A model generated the notes under the pieces. The model had not been told where the DNA came from and searched no databases. It worked only from the letters and a program-made list of their open reading frames with translations. The position numbers and the translations under genes are program-made. A DNA stretch of 32,547 bases from a virus, in the IMG/VR virus record IMGVR_UViG_3300010885_016018, positions 1-32,547 of that record. One strand, written 5' to 3'. Shown piece by piece: positions 18,093 to 23,334 of this stretch (positions are counted from its first letter, which is position 1; each line of letters begins with the position of its first letter).

Positions 18093-18662
18093 TTATCCTG
18101 CCAACGATAGAAATTCAGCGCGCACTTCGGGATTGCGGAACTCGCCAGTAAGGGAGGAAGTCACCATTTCAGCACCGGGCTTCCTAACCCCTCTGCAGCC
18201 CATACACGAGTGATGAGCGCGAATGAGAGCAGCACTACCCTGAGTGCTTAAATGCTCATCTAATGCCGTTGTAATCTGCGTTGTTAGGCGTTCTTGCACC
18301 TGTAGGCGGCGAGCATAAGCGTCTACCAGCCTTCCTATCTTGGAAAGCCCTACTACTCGGTCTTGCGGAATGTAGGCGACAGTAGCGGTTCCTGTAAAAG
18401 GTAACAGATGGTGCTCGCATAAACTGACGAAATCTAAGTTCCTGACTATAACCATCTCATCCACATTCCCTACTTCAAAGGTGACTCCCAAGATTTCTGA
18501 AATGTCCTTGCCGTAACCTTCCGTCATTTCTTTATAGGCTTTAGCAACACGCTTAGGAGTATCTAATAAGCCTTCGCGGTCAGGATTCTCTCCTATAAGG
18601 CGCAATAGCCATTTGATTCCTTCTTCTGTTGCTTCCTGTAAGTTGCCTGTAAGCGCGTTCAT
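18093..18662 (-). CDS. folE: GTP cyclohydrolase I
   Basis: A 189-aa enzyme that converts GTP to 7,8-dihydroneopterin triphosphate, the first step toward preQ0. Visible motifs are 'ENPDREGLLDTPKRVAKAY', 'SLCEHHLLPFTGTATVAYIP' with zinc ligands C82 and H85, and 'HHSCMGCRGVRKPGAEMVTS' with C153. The start at 18662 is chosen because its ATG overlaps the queE stop (ATGA) and has GGAGGGG just upstream; the longer frame to 18716 would overlap queE by 58 bases without a ribosome site. Length is normal for the family. It is the last gene of the deazaguanine operon. The host must have its own FolE for folate, so this copy probably boosts flux. Confidence 0.95.
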   Translation of the reverse strand: MNALTGNLQEATEEGIKWLLRLIGENPDREGLLDTPKRVAKAYKEMTEGYGKDISEILGVTFEVGNVDEMVIVRNLDFVSLCEHHLLPFTGTATVAYIPQDRVVGLSKIGRLVDAYARRLQVQERLTTQITTALDEHLSTQGSAALIRAHHSCMGCRGVRKPGAEMVTSSLTGEFRNPEVRAEFLSLAG

Positions 18663-19372
18663 ACGCCCCTCCGTAAATCCCAAATTAAAGTATGAAGTCT
18701 GGTAGTCAGATTCCATCTACGAGCAATAACTCCATCAGCAATTCGCTGCAGCGTAGTTAACTGCTCTTCTCGGGTTGCGCCTTCTGGCATAACCCAAATC
18801 TTATCTTCTGGTAAGTGGAAATCTTTTACCCATTTGGCTATTTCTTCCAAATCGCTCTCTTGCTGAGCAACGAACTTAAAAATTACGCTATCGTGATAGT
18901 CAGAAAGATTGGTAAAGGTGTCTAGTGCTTCTCGGTTTATCCGCTTAGACTCCGGATCTCCGCCATGAGCCAATTTCGGGGAAACTGAGAATTGCTGGAC
19001 TTTAAGAATAGTATCTCCTGCAGGAACTATCGTTCCGTTGGTTTCAATGTGAATCTTTATACCTGCAGCGAATAAGCCGTCAAGGAGCGCATTCCAACCA
19101 TCTTGCTTCTGTTGTAATAAAGGTTCTCCGCCTGAGATAACTACTGCTTTAACCTGCAATTCCTTTACTGATTCTAGAATTTCGCTAACGGGTGTCCGCA
19201 CCATTTCATTGCGCAGATCAAATCGAGTCGCGTCCCAAGTGTAAGGTGTATCGCACCATGAGCAAGAAAGATTACAAGCACCTAAGCGAATGAATCCCAC
19301 TATTTGCCCAGCATAAACTCCCTCACCTTGAATGGTGGGTCCGAAAATCTCAGAAACAACAAGAGTTTTCAT
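18659..19372 (-). CDS. queE: 7-carboxy-7-deazaguanine synthase (radical SAM)
   Basis: A 237-aa radical SAM enzyme that turns 6-carboxytetrahydropterin into 7-carboxy-7-deazaguanine. The cluster motif C33-x3-C37-x2-C40 ('CNLSCSWC') follows the substrate-binding 'EIFGPTIQGEGVYAG', and 'VVISGGEPLLQ' is the GGE motif for SAM binding. 'IETNGT' and 'SPKLAHGGD' are also family signatures. The start overlaps the queD stop (TAATG). It is third from the end of the operon, after queD, the enzyme that supplies its substrate. Confidence 0.95.
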   Translation of the reverse strand: MKTLVVSEIFGPTIQGEGVYAGQIVGFIRLGACNLSCSWCDTPYTWDATRFDLRNEMVRTPVSEILESVKELQVKAVVISGGEPLLQQKQDGWNALLDGLFAAGIKIHIETNGTIVPAGDTILKVQQFSVSPKLAHGGDPESKRINREALDTFTNLSDYHDSVIFKFVAQQESDLEEIAKWVKDFHLPEDKIWVMPEGATREEQLTTLQRIADGVIARRWNLTTRLHTLIWDLRRGV

Positions 19373-19821
19373 TATTCACCTTTATAGTAAGCAACAGAAG
19401 TAGGAGTTTCCCATACTGCAACTTCTTCTAACACTAAACCATCTCGGAATCGTTCATTTATTGTCCAAAAGAGTTGTTCCCATGACCAGCGAGCAATGTT
19501 TTCCGCAGTTGGAATGTATGGAAAGTTAATTACTTGCCAACCATTACCGTTAAGCAAATCACTTAATACCGAATCTTCTTCCCAAACGATAAATGAATGG
19601 TCAAGGACATCATGGACTAAATGAGTCATGATGAGTTTTAAGTCTGAGAAATCTACGAGCATTCCGTTATCGGGAGAACCTGCTTCATCTACTATCTTGC
19701 CTACGCAGGTAACGCGCACTTTATAACGATGTCCATGCGGGTTGCGGCATTTGCCTTGATGTGAAGGTACGCGGTGTCCAGCGTCAAATTCTATTTCTTT
19801 AGAAATTAGGGCTTTTGTCAT
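19372..19821 (-). CDS. queD: 6-carboxytetrahydropterin synthase
   Basis: A 149-aa member of the 6-pyruvoyl-tetrahydropterin synthase family, making 6-carboxytetrahydropterin from dihydroneopterin triphosphate. Zinc ligands are H16 ('FDAGHR'), H29 and H31 ('NPHGHRY'). C25 lies in the right place to be the catalytic Cys, H75 is in 'LDHSF', and E138 is in 'VWETP' for pterin anchoring. It overlaps queC by ATGA and queE by TAATG. Length is a little over the E. coli enzyme because of an insertion after the central strand. Confidence 0.95.
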   Translation of the reverse strand: MTKALISKEIEFDAGHRVPSHQGKCRNPHGHRYKVRVTCVGKIVDEAGSPDNGMLVDFSDLKLIMTHLVHDVLDHSFIVWEEDSVLSDLLNGNGWQVINFPYIPTAENIARWSWEQLFWTINERFRDGLVLEEVAVWETPTSVAYYKGE

Positions 19822-20507
19822 TTTAGTGGGTTCTCATACTCAGGAAATGACGCGTATTCGGTTGGGTCTTCTACGCCCGCAACGGTAAAGGCTTCGCGTC
19901 TTTCAAAGCAAGTACCGCACGCTCCACAATGAATTTCTCCGCCTTTATAGCATGACCAAGAAAGACTTAAAGGAGCATCAATGTCTGCTCCTATTTTTGC
20001 GATGTCCGCTTTAGAGATTTCTACGAAAGGAGCGATAATCGTAATGTCACCAAAAGTATTAGTGCCAAGTTCTAACGCTTTACTCATAGCCGTAACGAAT
20101 TCTGGTCGGCAATCTGGATAGATGTAATGATCTCCGCTATGCACCGCAGTTGCTACATAATCTAGTTTCCTTGCCACCGCAATTCCCGCAGCAACTGAAA
20201 GCATAATTGCGTTTCTATTAGGAACGACTGTAATTCGCATAGTTTGCTCTGCATAGTGTCCATCAGGAACTACTACTTCATCGGTAAGTGCGCTGCCAGT
20301 TAGAAATGGTTTAATGGATTCGAGGCTGACCGTGTCGTATTTAATTCCGAAATGGTCGGCAACTTTATAAGCGGATTCTAACTCTTTAGAATGGCGTTGC
20401 CCGTAGTTAATTCCAATAGTTTCAACCCAGTAACCATCTGCTAGTAATTTTGCAACTAAAGTGGTGGAATCCATGCCACCTGATAGAAGTGCTAAGGCTC
20501 TTTTCAT
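19818..20507 (-). CDS. queC: 7-cyano-7-deazaguanine (preQ0) synthase
   Basis: A 229-aa PP-loop ATPase that converts 7-carboxy-7-deazaguanine, ammonia and ATP into preQ0. The PP-loop 'SGGMDS' is at 9-14; 'GINYGQRHSKELESA' follows. A zinc site is formed by C186, C194, C197 and C200 in 'CYKGGEIHCGACGTC'. 'VPNRNAIMLSVAAGIA' and 'GDHYIYPDCRPEF' are family motifs. All catalytic features appear intact. It is coupled to the QueF-like gene before it and to queD after it by ATGA overlaps. Confidence 0.96.
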   Translation of the reverse strand: MKRALALLSGGMDSTTLVAKLLADGYWVETIGINYGQRHSKELESAYKVADHFGIKYDTVSLESIKPFLTGSALTDEVVVPDGHYAEQTMRITVVPNRNAIMLSVAAGIAVARKLDYVATAVHSGDHYIYPDCRPEFVTAMSKALELGTNTFGDITIIAPFVEISKADIAKIGADIDAPLSLSWSCYKGGEIHCGACGTCFERREAFTVAGVEDPTEYASFPEYENPLK

Positions 20508-20908
20508 GCTAACTCTTTCTGAAAGCGGAGTGCGGTAGAAGTCATTTGTAAGCCACCGCGTATTTGCTGAATAGAAGTAACCTCTATGCGAAATGGCTTA
20601 AAAGCGTCCATCAAGTCATTTGCGATAGTTGCTGCTACTGCTTCACCAAAAATTCCAGTATTGCGAAATTTCATAAGGTATAACTTCAATGACTTAGATT
20701 CAACGCATAACTCATCTGGTACATAGTCAATGATGACTGTATAAAGGTCAGGCTGATCTGTTACGGGGCAGAGAGAAGTAAATTCGTGAGTTTCGAACTT
20801 AACTGAATTTACTTTTGGATTAGCAAAAGTTTCTAATTGGTTGGCTTCTAACGCTCCGTCAATTTTGCTTCCAAGAACTGTTAAATGTTCTACTGATGGA
20901 TTACTCAT
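20504..20908 (-). CDS. queF: QueF-like 7-deazaguanine reductase lacking the active-site His
   Basis: A 134-aa T-fold protein of the single-domain (B. subtilis-type) QueF family, which reduces the nitrile of preQ0 to the aminomethyl group of preQ1 with NADPH. Cys47 in 'FTSLCPVTDQPD' and Asp54 match the nucleophile and acid (C55, D62 in B. subtilis). The QueF motif E70-SKSLKLY for NADPH is intact, and Glu89 matches E97. The motif usually read FRNHGxFHE is here FRNTGIFGE, so the conserved His (H96) is Gly88, confirmed at codon GGT. The protein is shorter than QueF at the C-terminus. It could be a slow QueF, or an enzyme adding something other than hydride to preQ0. It overlaps queC by ATGA. Confidence 0.85.
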   Translation of the reverse strand: MSNPSVEHLTVLGSKIDGALEANQLETFANPKVNSVKFETHEFTSLCPVTDQPDLYTVIIDYVPDELCVESKSLKLYLMKFRNTGIFGEAVAATIANDLMDAFKPFRIEVTSIQQIRGGLQMTSTALRFQKELA

Positions 20909-20915
20909 TTTTCTC

Positions 20916-21557
20916 CTAAATAAAAATTACGGGTGCTTTTGTTGGCTGCAGTGAAAACCGATTTGCGTATTTGAGCAAGAGGGTTGCCTTGTGGTTTTTT
21001 AGACCAAAATAATCCGCCCACTCGCATAGCCTTTCTATTCGCCTTGCCACATCTAATGCCGTTTCAGTTGTAGGTGGGGTAATGGTGCAAAGTGCACCAG
21101 TTCCGCCATCTGTCCTTTTCATAGCCCAACCACGCCCGAATAGTCTTTCATTAACTGTCCAGACATCGCCTTGCTTTATAAAACGGATTAGTTCAAAATC
21201 GCACGAAAAAGGTTGTTTCCCATGTATTCCGCATCTTCCGTTTTCTTGTATTAAGTTTTTACATCTACTGCCTTTATTCTCTTCCTGCGTATCTGACCAA
21301 AGAGTAACACTTTTTCCATTAAAATCAACTGTTCTTTCAACTAATTCATACGGTTTTGCTTCTTTTTCTATGTAATCTAATGAGAAAGTAGGGCAACACC
21401 CTCCGCAGTTAGAAGGACAAGTAAAGCCTTTTAAGAATCCAGTTCCAACTCTTAGCAGCATAGGTTGGTAAATCGTGCCTTTATAAGTGAAGGGGTGAGA
21501 GGTAATGGCAGCAAAATAACTGCTAACCACTTTATCTATCGTATCCCGTTGGGGCAC
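20916..21557 (-). CDS. YkgJ-type Cys-cluster protein of the deazaguanine operon, candidate base-tailoring enzyme
   Basis: A 213-aa protein starting with GTG inside the stop of the ParB-like gene (TAGTG). It has the YkgJ/FliB signature C47-x3-C51-x2-C54-C55 ('CPSNCGGCC') plus C99, C109, H112 and C119 ('GRCGIHGKQPFSC'), expected to hold an iron-sulfur cluster or zinc. Residues 130-213 form a helical C-terminal part with 'FGRGWAMKRTDGG'. Members of this superfamily include FliB, which methylates flagellin lysines, so a methyl transfer to an amino group is possible. Its place between the transglycosylase pair and the QueF-like gene suggests it acts on the 7-deazaguanine side chain or works with DpdA. 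The exact reaction cannot be read from sequence. Confidence 0.75.
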   Translation of the reverse strand: MPQRDTIDKVVSSYFAAITSHPFTYKGTIYQPMLLRVGTGFLKGFTCPSNCGGCCPTFSLDYIEKEAKPYELVERTVDFNGKSVTLWSDTQEENKGSRCKNLIQENGRCGIHGKQPFSCDFELIRFIKQGDVWTVNERLFGRGWAMKRTDGGTGALCTITPPTTETALDVARRIERLCEWADYFGLKNHKATLLLKYANRFSLQPTKAPVIFI

Positions 21558-22228
21558 TACTTTCCTGCTTTATTAAGAAGATGAGAAATAAAAGCCCCTG
21601 CCTGTAATTTCGGGTCTTTAGGAAAATCGCTGCGTAATTCAGCAAGGTAATCTTTCCAACGTTGCTCGGTATCTTCATCTAAAAGAGCATTAACCCGAAA
21701 ACCTTCATCACTTTTAGTATCGAAATCATCATCTACTACTCCAGTACCAAACTCATCCCAGTTAAAATCTGAAACCGCCATAAGTTCTGCAATTTGAGGC
21801 GCGGTATAAGGCAGACCTACTCCCAAAGTATCTCCCAAAGTTAGAGAAATGTCTGCTAACAAATGACCCAAACTAACGAGATCGGCTTGACCGCGAGTTT
21901 CATTCATGATAACCGTTAGTTTTTTTGCTCTTGCTTCTTCTATCTCTAGCACTACCGCAGGAATAGTTCTTTGCTTGATGAGGTCTTTGACATTTTCTTT
22001 ACCTTCTAATTTTTTTTCTGCTATTTCCTGCAACGCTCGCCATCTATGCTCCCCGTCAATAATTTGATAGTTACCTTCATGCTCTCGGACGAGAATAGGG
22101 GCGATGAAACCGTTGTCTAAGATAGATTCGATTTCTGCTGCATACTGACGCTCGTTCTGCTTATTCGGGTTCCAAGGATTTGCTTCTACTTTAGCGATAG
22201 GTAAGTGTTCTACTATGAGTTTTTCCAT
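21557..22228 (-). CDS. ParB/sulfiredoxin-fold protein paired with DpdA (DpdB-like)
   Basis: A 223-aa protein with a ParB N-terminal domain: 'IAKVEANPWNPNKQNERQ' and the nucleotide-binding box 'YQIIDGEHRWRAL' (GEHRW at 59-63). The C-terminal half is helical and acidic, with no clear HTH. The start at 22228 is chosen because its ATG overlaps the dpdA stop (TAATG); the longer frame reads back into dpdA. In bacterial dpd islands DpdB, which has a ParB-like domain, is needed with DpdA to insert preQ0 into DNA, and phage dpdA genes often have a ParB-like neighbour. It likely powers or targets base exchange; a plasmid partition role is unlikely here. Confidence 0.82.
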   Translation of the reverse strand: MEKLIVEHLPIAKVEANPWNPNKQNERQYAAEIESILDNGFIAPILVREHEGNYQIIDGEHRWRALQEIAEKKLEGKENVKDLIKQRTIPAVVLEIEEARAKKLTVIMNETRGQADLVSLGHLLADISLTLGDTLGVGLPYTAPQIAELMAVSDFNWDEFGTGVVDDDFDTKSDEGFRVNALLDEDTEQRWKDYLAELRSDFPKDPKLQAGAFISHLLNKAGK

Positions 22229-23049
22229 TAGTCCTCCCAGACAATTCCGCGAGCAGCCCATAACGAAGTTATAGCATCGCCCATGCGTATTTGATTTTCT
22301 ATTCCTTTTCGGGCAACGAAAGTAACTGCTTCCCGACTATCTCTGTGCCTTATTACTTCTACTCCGTAATTCTTACCTACCCGAGCAGTTTTGCCAAGTT
22401 CATTGGTATAGCCTCCATAACGAAAAGGTGATGACCAAGTTGAGGAATCTGCTGAGTAATACGGAAAGTTAGCAAGCATTCGGTAAGAGGTAACGGCTAA
22501 ACCATGAGTGCGCGGAAAAACTTTATTATGATTTTCTACAAAATGACCCATAAGAACTTTCTGCCATGCCAGTTTAGAATTAATCGCGACATCGTTTCGG
22601 GGAGAAATGCCAAGAATTCCTTTAGGCGGTAAGCGTGATACCAGTAAGTCTAAAAACTCTCTTGATTCATCTTGGTGGAATACTTCCATTACTTCCAATC
22701 CCTGCGCTCGCAAGTAATCTGCGTTTTTAAGGCTCATCTCCATGCCAGCCTTGCGTTCTTTTTCGCTAGAAGTCTTGCCTCTTTCACCCGGAATCACATC
22801 TAAGTTAACGCATACCACGCGCCTGTATTTTTCTTTTTGTTTATTTGACCAATCCGCGTATGCTGAAATGTCTACTTTAGTTCCTTTAGACCATGCGCTA
22901 AACGCACCAGAATCAAAGATTAAATACTCAGGATTCCAAGTGACGGGTTCTAGTGCTTCTTTATACTCAAAAGATACTAAGACATTTTTCGGCGCGAGTT
23001 GCTGCATCATAAGCCCATGACTTAAACCAAGTGCGAAGGTCAGCCTCAT
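22228..23049 (-). CDS. dpdA: DpdA-type DNA 7-deazaguanine transglycosylase
   Basis: A 273-aa TIM-barrel protein related to tRNA-guanine transglycosylases. Matching positions are 'LIFDSGAFSAW' (D46, like the substrate-binding Asp of TGT), 'VNLDVIPG' (D84), 'MEVFHQDE' (H125), 'GILGISPRND', 'THGLAVTS', and 'YYSADSSTW' with D201 in the place of the nucleophilic Asp. It is shorter than tRNA TGT and lacks its zinc-binding C-terminal Cys set, as is usual for phage DpdA. It should swap guanine in DNA for a 7-deazaguanine made by the downstream genes. It leads the operon, behind a 14-bp hairpin that ends 16 bases before its ATG, with GAAAGG as ribosome site. Confidence 0.88.
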   Translation of the reverse strand: MRLTFALGLSHGLMMQQLAPKNVLVSFEYKEALEPVTWNPEYLIFDSGAFSAWSKGTKVDISAYADWSNKQKEKYRRVVCVNLDVIPGERGKTSSEKERKAGMEMSLKNADYLRAQGLEVMEVFHQDESREFLDLLVSRLPPKGILGISPRNDVAINSKLAWQKVLMGHFVENHNKVFPRTHGLAVTSYRMLANFPYYSADSSTWSSPFRYGGYTNELGKTARVGKNYGVEVIRHRDSREAVTFVARKGIENQIRMGDAITSLWAARGIVWED

Positions 23050-23065
23050 TTTTGCCTTTCAAGGT

Positions 23066-23113
23066 GGTAGGTGAGAGATAGTCGTCAGGGTAGGAAACGA
23101 TCTCTCACCTACC
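23066..23113 (-). other. 14-bp perfect stem-loop in the dpdA leader
   Basis: GGTAGGTGAGAGAT (23066-23079) and ATCTCTCACCTACC (23100-23113) are exact inverted repeats around a 20-base loop. In the mRNA the base of the stem abuts the ribosome site of dpdA, and no T-run follows, so this is not an intrinsic terminator. It could control initiation, block RNase attack on the operon mRNA, or bind a regulator as DNA. The structure is certain from sequence; the role is inferred. Confidence 0.75.
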
Positions 23114-23124
23114 TCTCGTACTGT

Positions 23125-23150
23125 AGCGCATTAAATTCCCGTAATGCGCT
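23125..23150. other. 9-bp hairpin at the end of the ssb-HTH gene block
   Basis: AGCGCATTA (23125-23133) and TAATGCGCT (23142-23150) form a perfect stem with an 8-base loop that includes the stop codon of the HTH gene. On the minus strand no T-run follows; on the plus strand TTTT follows (to 23153). It may act as a 3' end stabiliser for the early mRNA or as a weak block for plus-strand transcripts. Confidence 0.55.
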
Positions 23151-23334
23151 TTTCGCTTCGACGCTTCCCCAACGCCAAAACTTCAGTACGAGAAAACTGC
23201 GAGCGCCTATGTTTGCGCCCCATAACTGTTAATTCTTTCCGAAATACCAGTTGCCTAAGATTAGTTTGAGAAATCCCTAGCAATTCAGATACGTCTTTAG
23301 AATCTATTTTGTCTTCATTACCAAGGGAATTCAT
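23131..23334 (-). CDS. Excisionase/MerR-like helix-turn-helix protein
   Basis: A 67-aa protein read from MNSLGNEDKI at 23334. The N-terminal 'DSKDVSELLGISQTNLRQLVFRKEL' is a MerR/Xis-type winged HTH: a helix, the 'ISQTNLRQLV' recognition region, then a wing and a basic C-terminus 'RKHRRSQFSRTEVLALGKRR'. It overlaps ssb by 17 bases and has GAGG upstream within ssb; a longer frame to 23403 would overlap much more. With no integrase in view, it is more likely a small transcription or DNA-bending factor than a true excisionase. A 9-bp hairpin covers its stop. Confidence 0.7.
   Translation of the reverse strand: MNSLGNEDKIDSKDVSELLGISQTNLRQLVFRKELTVMGRKHRRSQFSRTEVLALGKRRSEKRITGI

Follow-up and report, generated by a model that had tools for sequence, protein, structure and literature searches.

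An uncultured phage operon coupling 7-deazaguanine synthesis to a ParB-linked DpdA, with a Cys-cluster protein as candidate methylase of preQ1 in DNA

The 7-deazaguanine dPreQ1 is a known constituent of the DNA of Streptococcus phage Dp-1 (PMC6884629) and of Vibrio phage 6E351A, which has QueF and 15% dPreQ1, of mass 295 Da, in its DNA (PMC12028318), and the transglycosylase DpdA of phage CAjan is essential for DNA modification (PMC6884629). The present work concerns a linear IMG/VR virus record, IMGVR_UViG_3300010885_016018, analysed over all its 32,547 bases (hereafter the window) and probably a piece of a larger phage genome. Its minus strand carries an operon encoding four enzymes that lead from GTP to preQ0, a preQ0 reductase (QueF), a Cys-cluster protein, a ParB-like protein and a DpdA-type transglycosylase. 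Judged by its genes, it is nearly certain (about 0.93) to be an operon for 7-deazaguanine modification of phage DNA.

This gene set has precedent, since every component is found in Mycobacterium phage Knocker and all but one in Arthrobacter phage Mufasa8, under other annotations. Knocker genes 1-8 hold all eight components in one operon near a terminase gene, but their order differs, the ParB protein is fused to a DUF6610 domain and the DpdA is only distantly related (28% over 172 residues). Mufasa8 genes 90-96 follow the same order as the window, dpdA-parB-queF-queC-queD-queE-folE, with a DpdA 48% identical to that of the window, but without a Cys-cluster gene, so that dPreQ1 is the predicted end product in this phage. 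An earlier note on this DNA, made from the sequence alone, had held that QueF together with a YkgJ-type gene goes beyond the clusters known from actinophages, a claim that does not survive this comparison. Mufasa8 gp92 (L010:8500-8907; L numbers designate the loci compared) and Knocker gp2 (L012:1310-1702) are indeed QueF, though annotated as GTP cyclohydrolase I. Cellulophaga phages phiSM and phi38:2 and the Vibrio schizotequatroviruses (VH7D group) also combine QueF, a Cys-cluster homologue and the 7-deazaguanine pathway; the DpdA of phiSM differs, however (30%), and VH7D has a distant 458-aa DpdA2-like protein and dispersed genes. Dp-1 shares the DpdA clade, the preQ0 genes and QueF, but neither a ParB partner nor a Cys-cluster gene was seen in the region. 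The features of the window are as follows, all on the minus strand.

22228 to 23049: dpdA, DNA guanine transglycosylase of a short, ParB-linked subtype, 273 aa
21557 to 22228: parB-like gene, with a ParB_N domain and a DGEHRWRAL motif, starting at the ATG at 22228 (about 223 aa)
20916 to 21557: Cys-cluster protein of PF03692/YkgJ type, 213 aa (probable DpdM, a dPreQ1 N-methyltransferase, discussed below)
20504 to 20908: queF, unimodular preQ0 reductase, 134 aa
19818 to 20507: queC, preQ0 synthase, with an SGGMDS loop and a four-Cys site, 229 aa
19372 to 19821: queD, 6-carboxytetrahydropterin synthase, with CxxxHGH, 149 aa
18659 to 19372: queE, 7-carboxy-7-deazaguanine (CDG) synthase, with the radical S-adenosylmethionine (SAM) motif CxxxCxxC, 237 aa
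18093 to 18662: folE, GTP cyclohydrolase I, starting at the ATG at 18662 (about 189 aa)
23065 to 23113: leader hairpin, the repeat arms of a 14-bp perfect inverted repeat directly upstream of dpdA

The eight coupled genes that the earlier note had described from 23049 to 18093 are all real and stand in the order given there, and eight coupled homologues of a single pathway cannot be due to chance. Coupling was read at the junctions themselves: TAATG between dpdA and parB and between queD and queE, TAGTG between parB and ykgJ (the Cys-cluster gene), and ATGA for queF/queC, queC/queD and queE/folE, while ykgJ and queF are separated by 7 nt with a ribosome site. The parB start lies most likely at 22228 rather than at the 22261 of the open reading frame (ORF) caller, because GGAGG stands just upstream and the ATG overlaps the dpdA stop (TAATGG), in agreement with the alignment; the ATGA junction with queE likewise indicates that the folE start should be corrected from the ORF caller's 18716 to 18662.

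Among the enzymes of the pathway, FolE (4e-68, Pfam/NCBIfam) passes the TIGR00063 equivalog cut-off and its zinc ligands CEHH and HSCM are conserved in the alignment; QueC (Pfam 1e-61) passes the TIGR00364 cut-off, with the SGGMDS loop and the Cys site present; QueD (2.5e-33) contains CxxxHGH and reaches 90.6 bits with TIGR03367, barely over the cut-off of 89.25; and QueE, with CxxxCxxC present, is matched by the Pfam profile Radical_SAM (2e-11) and by PHROG 2076 (QueE-like, 2e-64). The complete set from GTP to preQ0, with its catalytic motifs, was thus confirmed as the earlier note had proposed. The enzyme that it called QueF-like is also present and could be assigned to the preQ0 reductases, as it exceeds the cut-off of TIGR03139 (QueF-II) with 2.8e-34 and holds the catalytic residues C47 and D54, E89 and the NADPH motif ESKSLK. 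The QueF family profile found QueF reductases in the PDB at 1e-37 and the QueF-like archaeosine synthase (QueF-L) at only 1e-8, and an archaeosine reading was discarded on this basis. Membership of the reductase class predicts preQ1, which bears a primary amine, as the free base, and preQ1 is likely to be the base inserted. Among related loci, a Vut_1/YhhQ-type transporter gene was observed within the operon, between parB and queF (L005:8940-9653, L006:5491-6141, L008:12461-13111); the operon of L005 keeps queC and queF, without queD, queE and folE.

DpdA has no Pfam match and belongs to PHROG 887 (6e-34), named queuine tRNA-ribosyltransferase. In its AlphaFold model (pLDDT, the predicted local distance difference test, 90.7; alignment of 49 homologues, rows from the phage collection being left out of the structure-model inputs), the best Foldseek matches in the PDB are tRNA-guanine transglycosylases (TGTs), with E 1.4e-4, a template-modelling (TM) score of 0.64 and 9-13% identity. 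An hhalign comparison of DpdA with TGT gave no sequence-level match, and the putative homology rests on the fold and on DpdA2 as an intermediate. Across the 49 homologues, D84 and D201 never vary and D46 hardly does; these three residues sit in the motifs DSGAF, VNLDVIPG and SxDSS, which align with DpdA2. Both the PHROG name and the TGT fold would suit an operon that raises queuosine in host tRNA, with DpdA acting on tRNA, but this is very improbable. The PF01702 profile misses the window DpdA yet finds bacterial TGTs strongly, the CxCxxC zinc site is absent, neither QueA nor QueG was seen in the window, and a ParB partner, like the DpdA-ParB fusion described below, does not suit a tRNA enzyme. 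In a quick tree in which phage DpdAs were set beside four TGTs from bacteria and six DpdA2-like proteins (long branches, Knocker and Bipper among others, being flagged), the window DpdA stands with IMG/VR relatives and that of Mufasa8 at 100%, in a clade with the DpdAs of phages 9g and Dp-1, whose DNA contains dG+ and dPreQ1, while TGT is separated by a 99% branch. The reading of DpdA as a tRNA TGT was rejected on this tree and on the missing PF01702 match. PHROG, tree and TGT fold together uphold the DpdA-type DNA transglycosylase of the earlier note, which had itself named a grouping with tRNA enzymes as evidence to the contrary; its prediction of a 7-deazaguanine in the phage DNA is supported by the preQ0 gene set, QueF and this transglycosylase.

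The ParB-like protein (Pfam PF02195, ParB_N, 5e-14; PHROG 723, 3.5e-27) appears to be linked to a particular kind of DpdA. In the window, as in L002-L010, phiSM and several further viruses, its gene is next to dpdA or no more than three genes away, and 15 ParB-linked DpdAs form one group in the tree (92%). Where parB is within that distance, the DpdAs are also shorter after the DSG motif, with a median of 228 vs 270 residues (n = 23 vs 80, p 3e-12, shared ancestry uncorrected). These data support a joint action of DpdA and ParB on DNA, in which the role of ParB may be to bind it. A natural DpdA-ParB fusion, a single 596-aa protein, occurs at L060:10001-11791. In three loci, which are among the closest relatives of the window, a further protein, with two ParB domains and absent from the window, is encoded just upstream of dpdA (L002:8814-9986, L003:8814-9986, L005:6192-7367). 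In other 7-deazaguanine operons, a ParB-type protein ends in a DUF6610-like domain (L016:7623-8963, L019:7104-8552, L040:7179-8435 and, in Knocker, L012:1-1317); Pfam calls the domain DUF6610 in L040 and Knocker, with which L016 and L019 align. No separate dpdA was seen in L016, L019 and L040, and hhalign gave a weak match of the DUF6610 domain to DpdA around the catalytic motif; DUF6610 may be a divergent transglycosylase.

The Cys-cluster protein matches PF03692 at 3.8e-5, with 24.7 bits for a curated cut-off of 23, and contains eight conserved Cys; 41 of its 46 homologues match PF03692 at E up to 0.1. The conserved residues are C47, C51, C54, C55, C99, C109, C119 and C157. The isolate collection is a better test of its linkage to QueF than the pooled loci, and there the protein occurs in 27 records of four lineages (Knocker; Pan1; the Cellulophaga phiSM group; the Vibrio schizotequatroviruses), every one of which has QueF (nine, plus eighteen from Vibrio). 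DpdA itself is matched by 183 isolate records, and the lists of QueF matches include 0 of the 39 from Escherichia and 2 of the 30 from Pseudomonas. In IMG/VR, scanning with one Cys-cluster sequence gave no hits; an alignment-based scan, made without reference to QueF, gave 41 loci, 35 of them with QueF (32 nearby, 3 elsewhere in the record), the six in which QueF was not found being contigs of 4-47 kb. The two genes are immediate neighbours in 27 of the 47 loci holding both. A Fisher test of the association over the pooled loci fell short of significance (p 0.18-0.31), because the control loci, collected through DpdA, are themselves mostly QueF-positive. Cys-cluster homologues were also observed in contigs of bacterial metagenome-assembled genomes (L129, L130, L132 and L133, from Acidobacteriota, Syntrophobacteraceae, Alphaproteobacteria and Smithella); L132 and L133 also hold dpdA and queF and are probably phage contigs.

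This distribution bears on what the protein may do. PF03692 proteins are annotated just as zinc- or iron-chelating, and dPreQ1 is documented as the end product in Dp-1 and 6E351A, in line with a modification that ends at dPreQ1 (or dPreQ0) and in which metal supply, for example to the radical SAM enzyme QueE, is aided by the Cys-cluster protein. We regard this as unlikely, since the linkage is to QueF, in all the isolates and through the neighbouring genes, and no preQ0-only phages with QueE are among the carriers. Methylation of preQ1 fits this linkage better in our view, and a described enzyme offers a precedent for the chemistry. FliB is a SAM-dependent lysine-amine methylase with a [4Fe-4S] cluster, eight conserved Cys and a motif resembling PF03692 (PMC8598068). 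The Cys-cluster protein resembles it in these Cys, in the motif and in the predicted SAM methylation of a primary amine, but the substrate of FliB is a protein and its pattern is CX4CX3CC, instead of CX3CX2CC. Conversion of dPreQ1 to an N-methyl form would indeed need the same type of chemistry. The structure model is confident (pLDDT 95.3), with no solved fold relative in the PDB (best E 3.4) and matches in BFVD to just three proteins, all of its own family; the fold is unlike that of known methylases, and structure does not tell the chemistry. Other preQ1 derivatives, such as fdPreQ1, occur in phage DNA, and the enzyme might make a different one, formylated or oxidised for example; given the resemblance of the Cys pattern to that of the amine methylase FliB, this appears distinctly improbable. 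Cui et al., in 2023, reportedly named as DpdM a validated dPreQ1 methyltransferase whose fold was new among methylases of nucleic acids. Cellulophaga and Vibrio phages are, we presume, carriers of DpdM, and the same Cys-cluster family is present in both. Isolate record 6E35.1a has QueF and no Cys-cluster match; taken as phage 6E351A, it would be a natural control in which QueF without the Cys-cluster protein leaves plain dPreQ1. In the window, the inserted base is probably methylated in the end.

Several points weigh on the other side. The base is predicted from genes, on the contig of an uncultured virus, and QueE scores under the NCBIfam cut-offs for QueE subtypes. The name is the ground for treating record 6E35.1a as 6E351A. 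The likeness to FliB is one of Cys pattern and chemistry, any homology being putative, and the probable identity of the family with DpdM is a lead and not a test. The Cys-cluster protein could also deliver metal or have another tailoring function.

The proposed pathway would run as follows, provided that the enzymes are active. FolE, QueD, QueE and QueC would convert GTP to preQ0, the nitrile of which QueF would reduce with NADPH to the primary amine of preQ1. DpdA would then exchange guanine for preQ1 in finished DNA, probably complexed with the ParB-like protein; the DNA binding that the short DpdA lacks may come from this partner. The Cys-cluster protein, as a DpdM-type enzyme probably using an Fe-S cluster and SAM, would finally turn the dPreQ1 amine into 7-(methylamino)methyl-7-deazaguanine. 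Guanine would be partly replaced, and host restriction enzymes would be blocked.

Related loci may tailor the same amine in another way. GNAT acetyltransferase genes stand between dpdA and parB, two in each of L006-L008 and one in L009, at the following positions.

L006:3799-4739, GNAT genes
L007:10209-11146, GNAT genes
L008:10762-11699, GNAT genes
L009:672-1115, GNAT gene

A member of the same GNAT cluster is also found beside dpdA/queF in L065, L068, L074 and L103 (under the Pfam cut-off in L103, and assigned without a Pfam scan in L074). The Cys-cluster gene is present in none of these eight loci, a small and biased sample, and gene content suggests, as a prediction only, that these sister phages make an acylated dPreQ1 base. 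Tentatively, a common scheme may be drawn, with a two-component transglycosylase, in which a short DpdA needs ParB for DNA binding or spreading, and an interchangeable slot for tailoring the amine, occupied by the methylase here and by GNAT in the sister phages, where it would yield N-acyl-dPreQ1. We know of no description of the latter as a DNA base. A family of roughly 295 aa, with no Pfam or PHROG match, was also observed beside queF/dpdA or queC (L098:6903-7790, with relatives in L056, L063, L066, L079 and L102), and is possibly another tailoring enzyme.

These results extend the range of viruses predicted to carry methylated preQ1 in their DNA, and show the same gene combination in actinophage records, where annotations as GTP cyclohydrolase or hypothetical protein hide it. 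Three predictions that can be tested arise from them: that a short subtype of DpdA depends on ParB, that DNA is the substrate of an Fe-S amine methylase, and that sister phages contain acetylated dPreQ1. Bases of this kind are of interest in the evasion of restriction, in the sequencing and cloning of phages, and as tools for amine-based labelling of DNA.

The surroundings of the operon are those of a phage, as the earlier note had supposed: the minus strand of the window bears terminase, portal, head and tail genes, together with single-stranded DNA-binding protein (SSB), RusA, RecT and exonuclease genes for recombination. The operon has the SSB side at one end and the small terminase gene (terS) at the other, 1 nt separating folE from terS. 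The large terminase is closest to that of a Microcystis phage (48%) and has matches in numerous phages of Gordonia, Microbacterium and Arthrobacter, and the nearest counterpart of the dpdA-parB pair is that of an Arthrobacter phage; our guess for the host is a freshwater actinobacterium. An Rfam scan of the window found no riboswitch, and the leader is strongly structured at 23045-23160 (fold z = -5.9). Besides the 14-bp repeat, a second hairpin, of 9 bp, was observed in the dpdA leader (window 23065-23150), and L057 has an inverted repeat, unrelated to that of the window, at the equivalent leader position.

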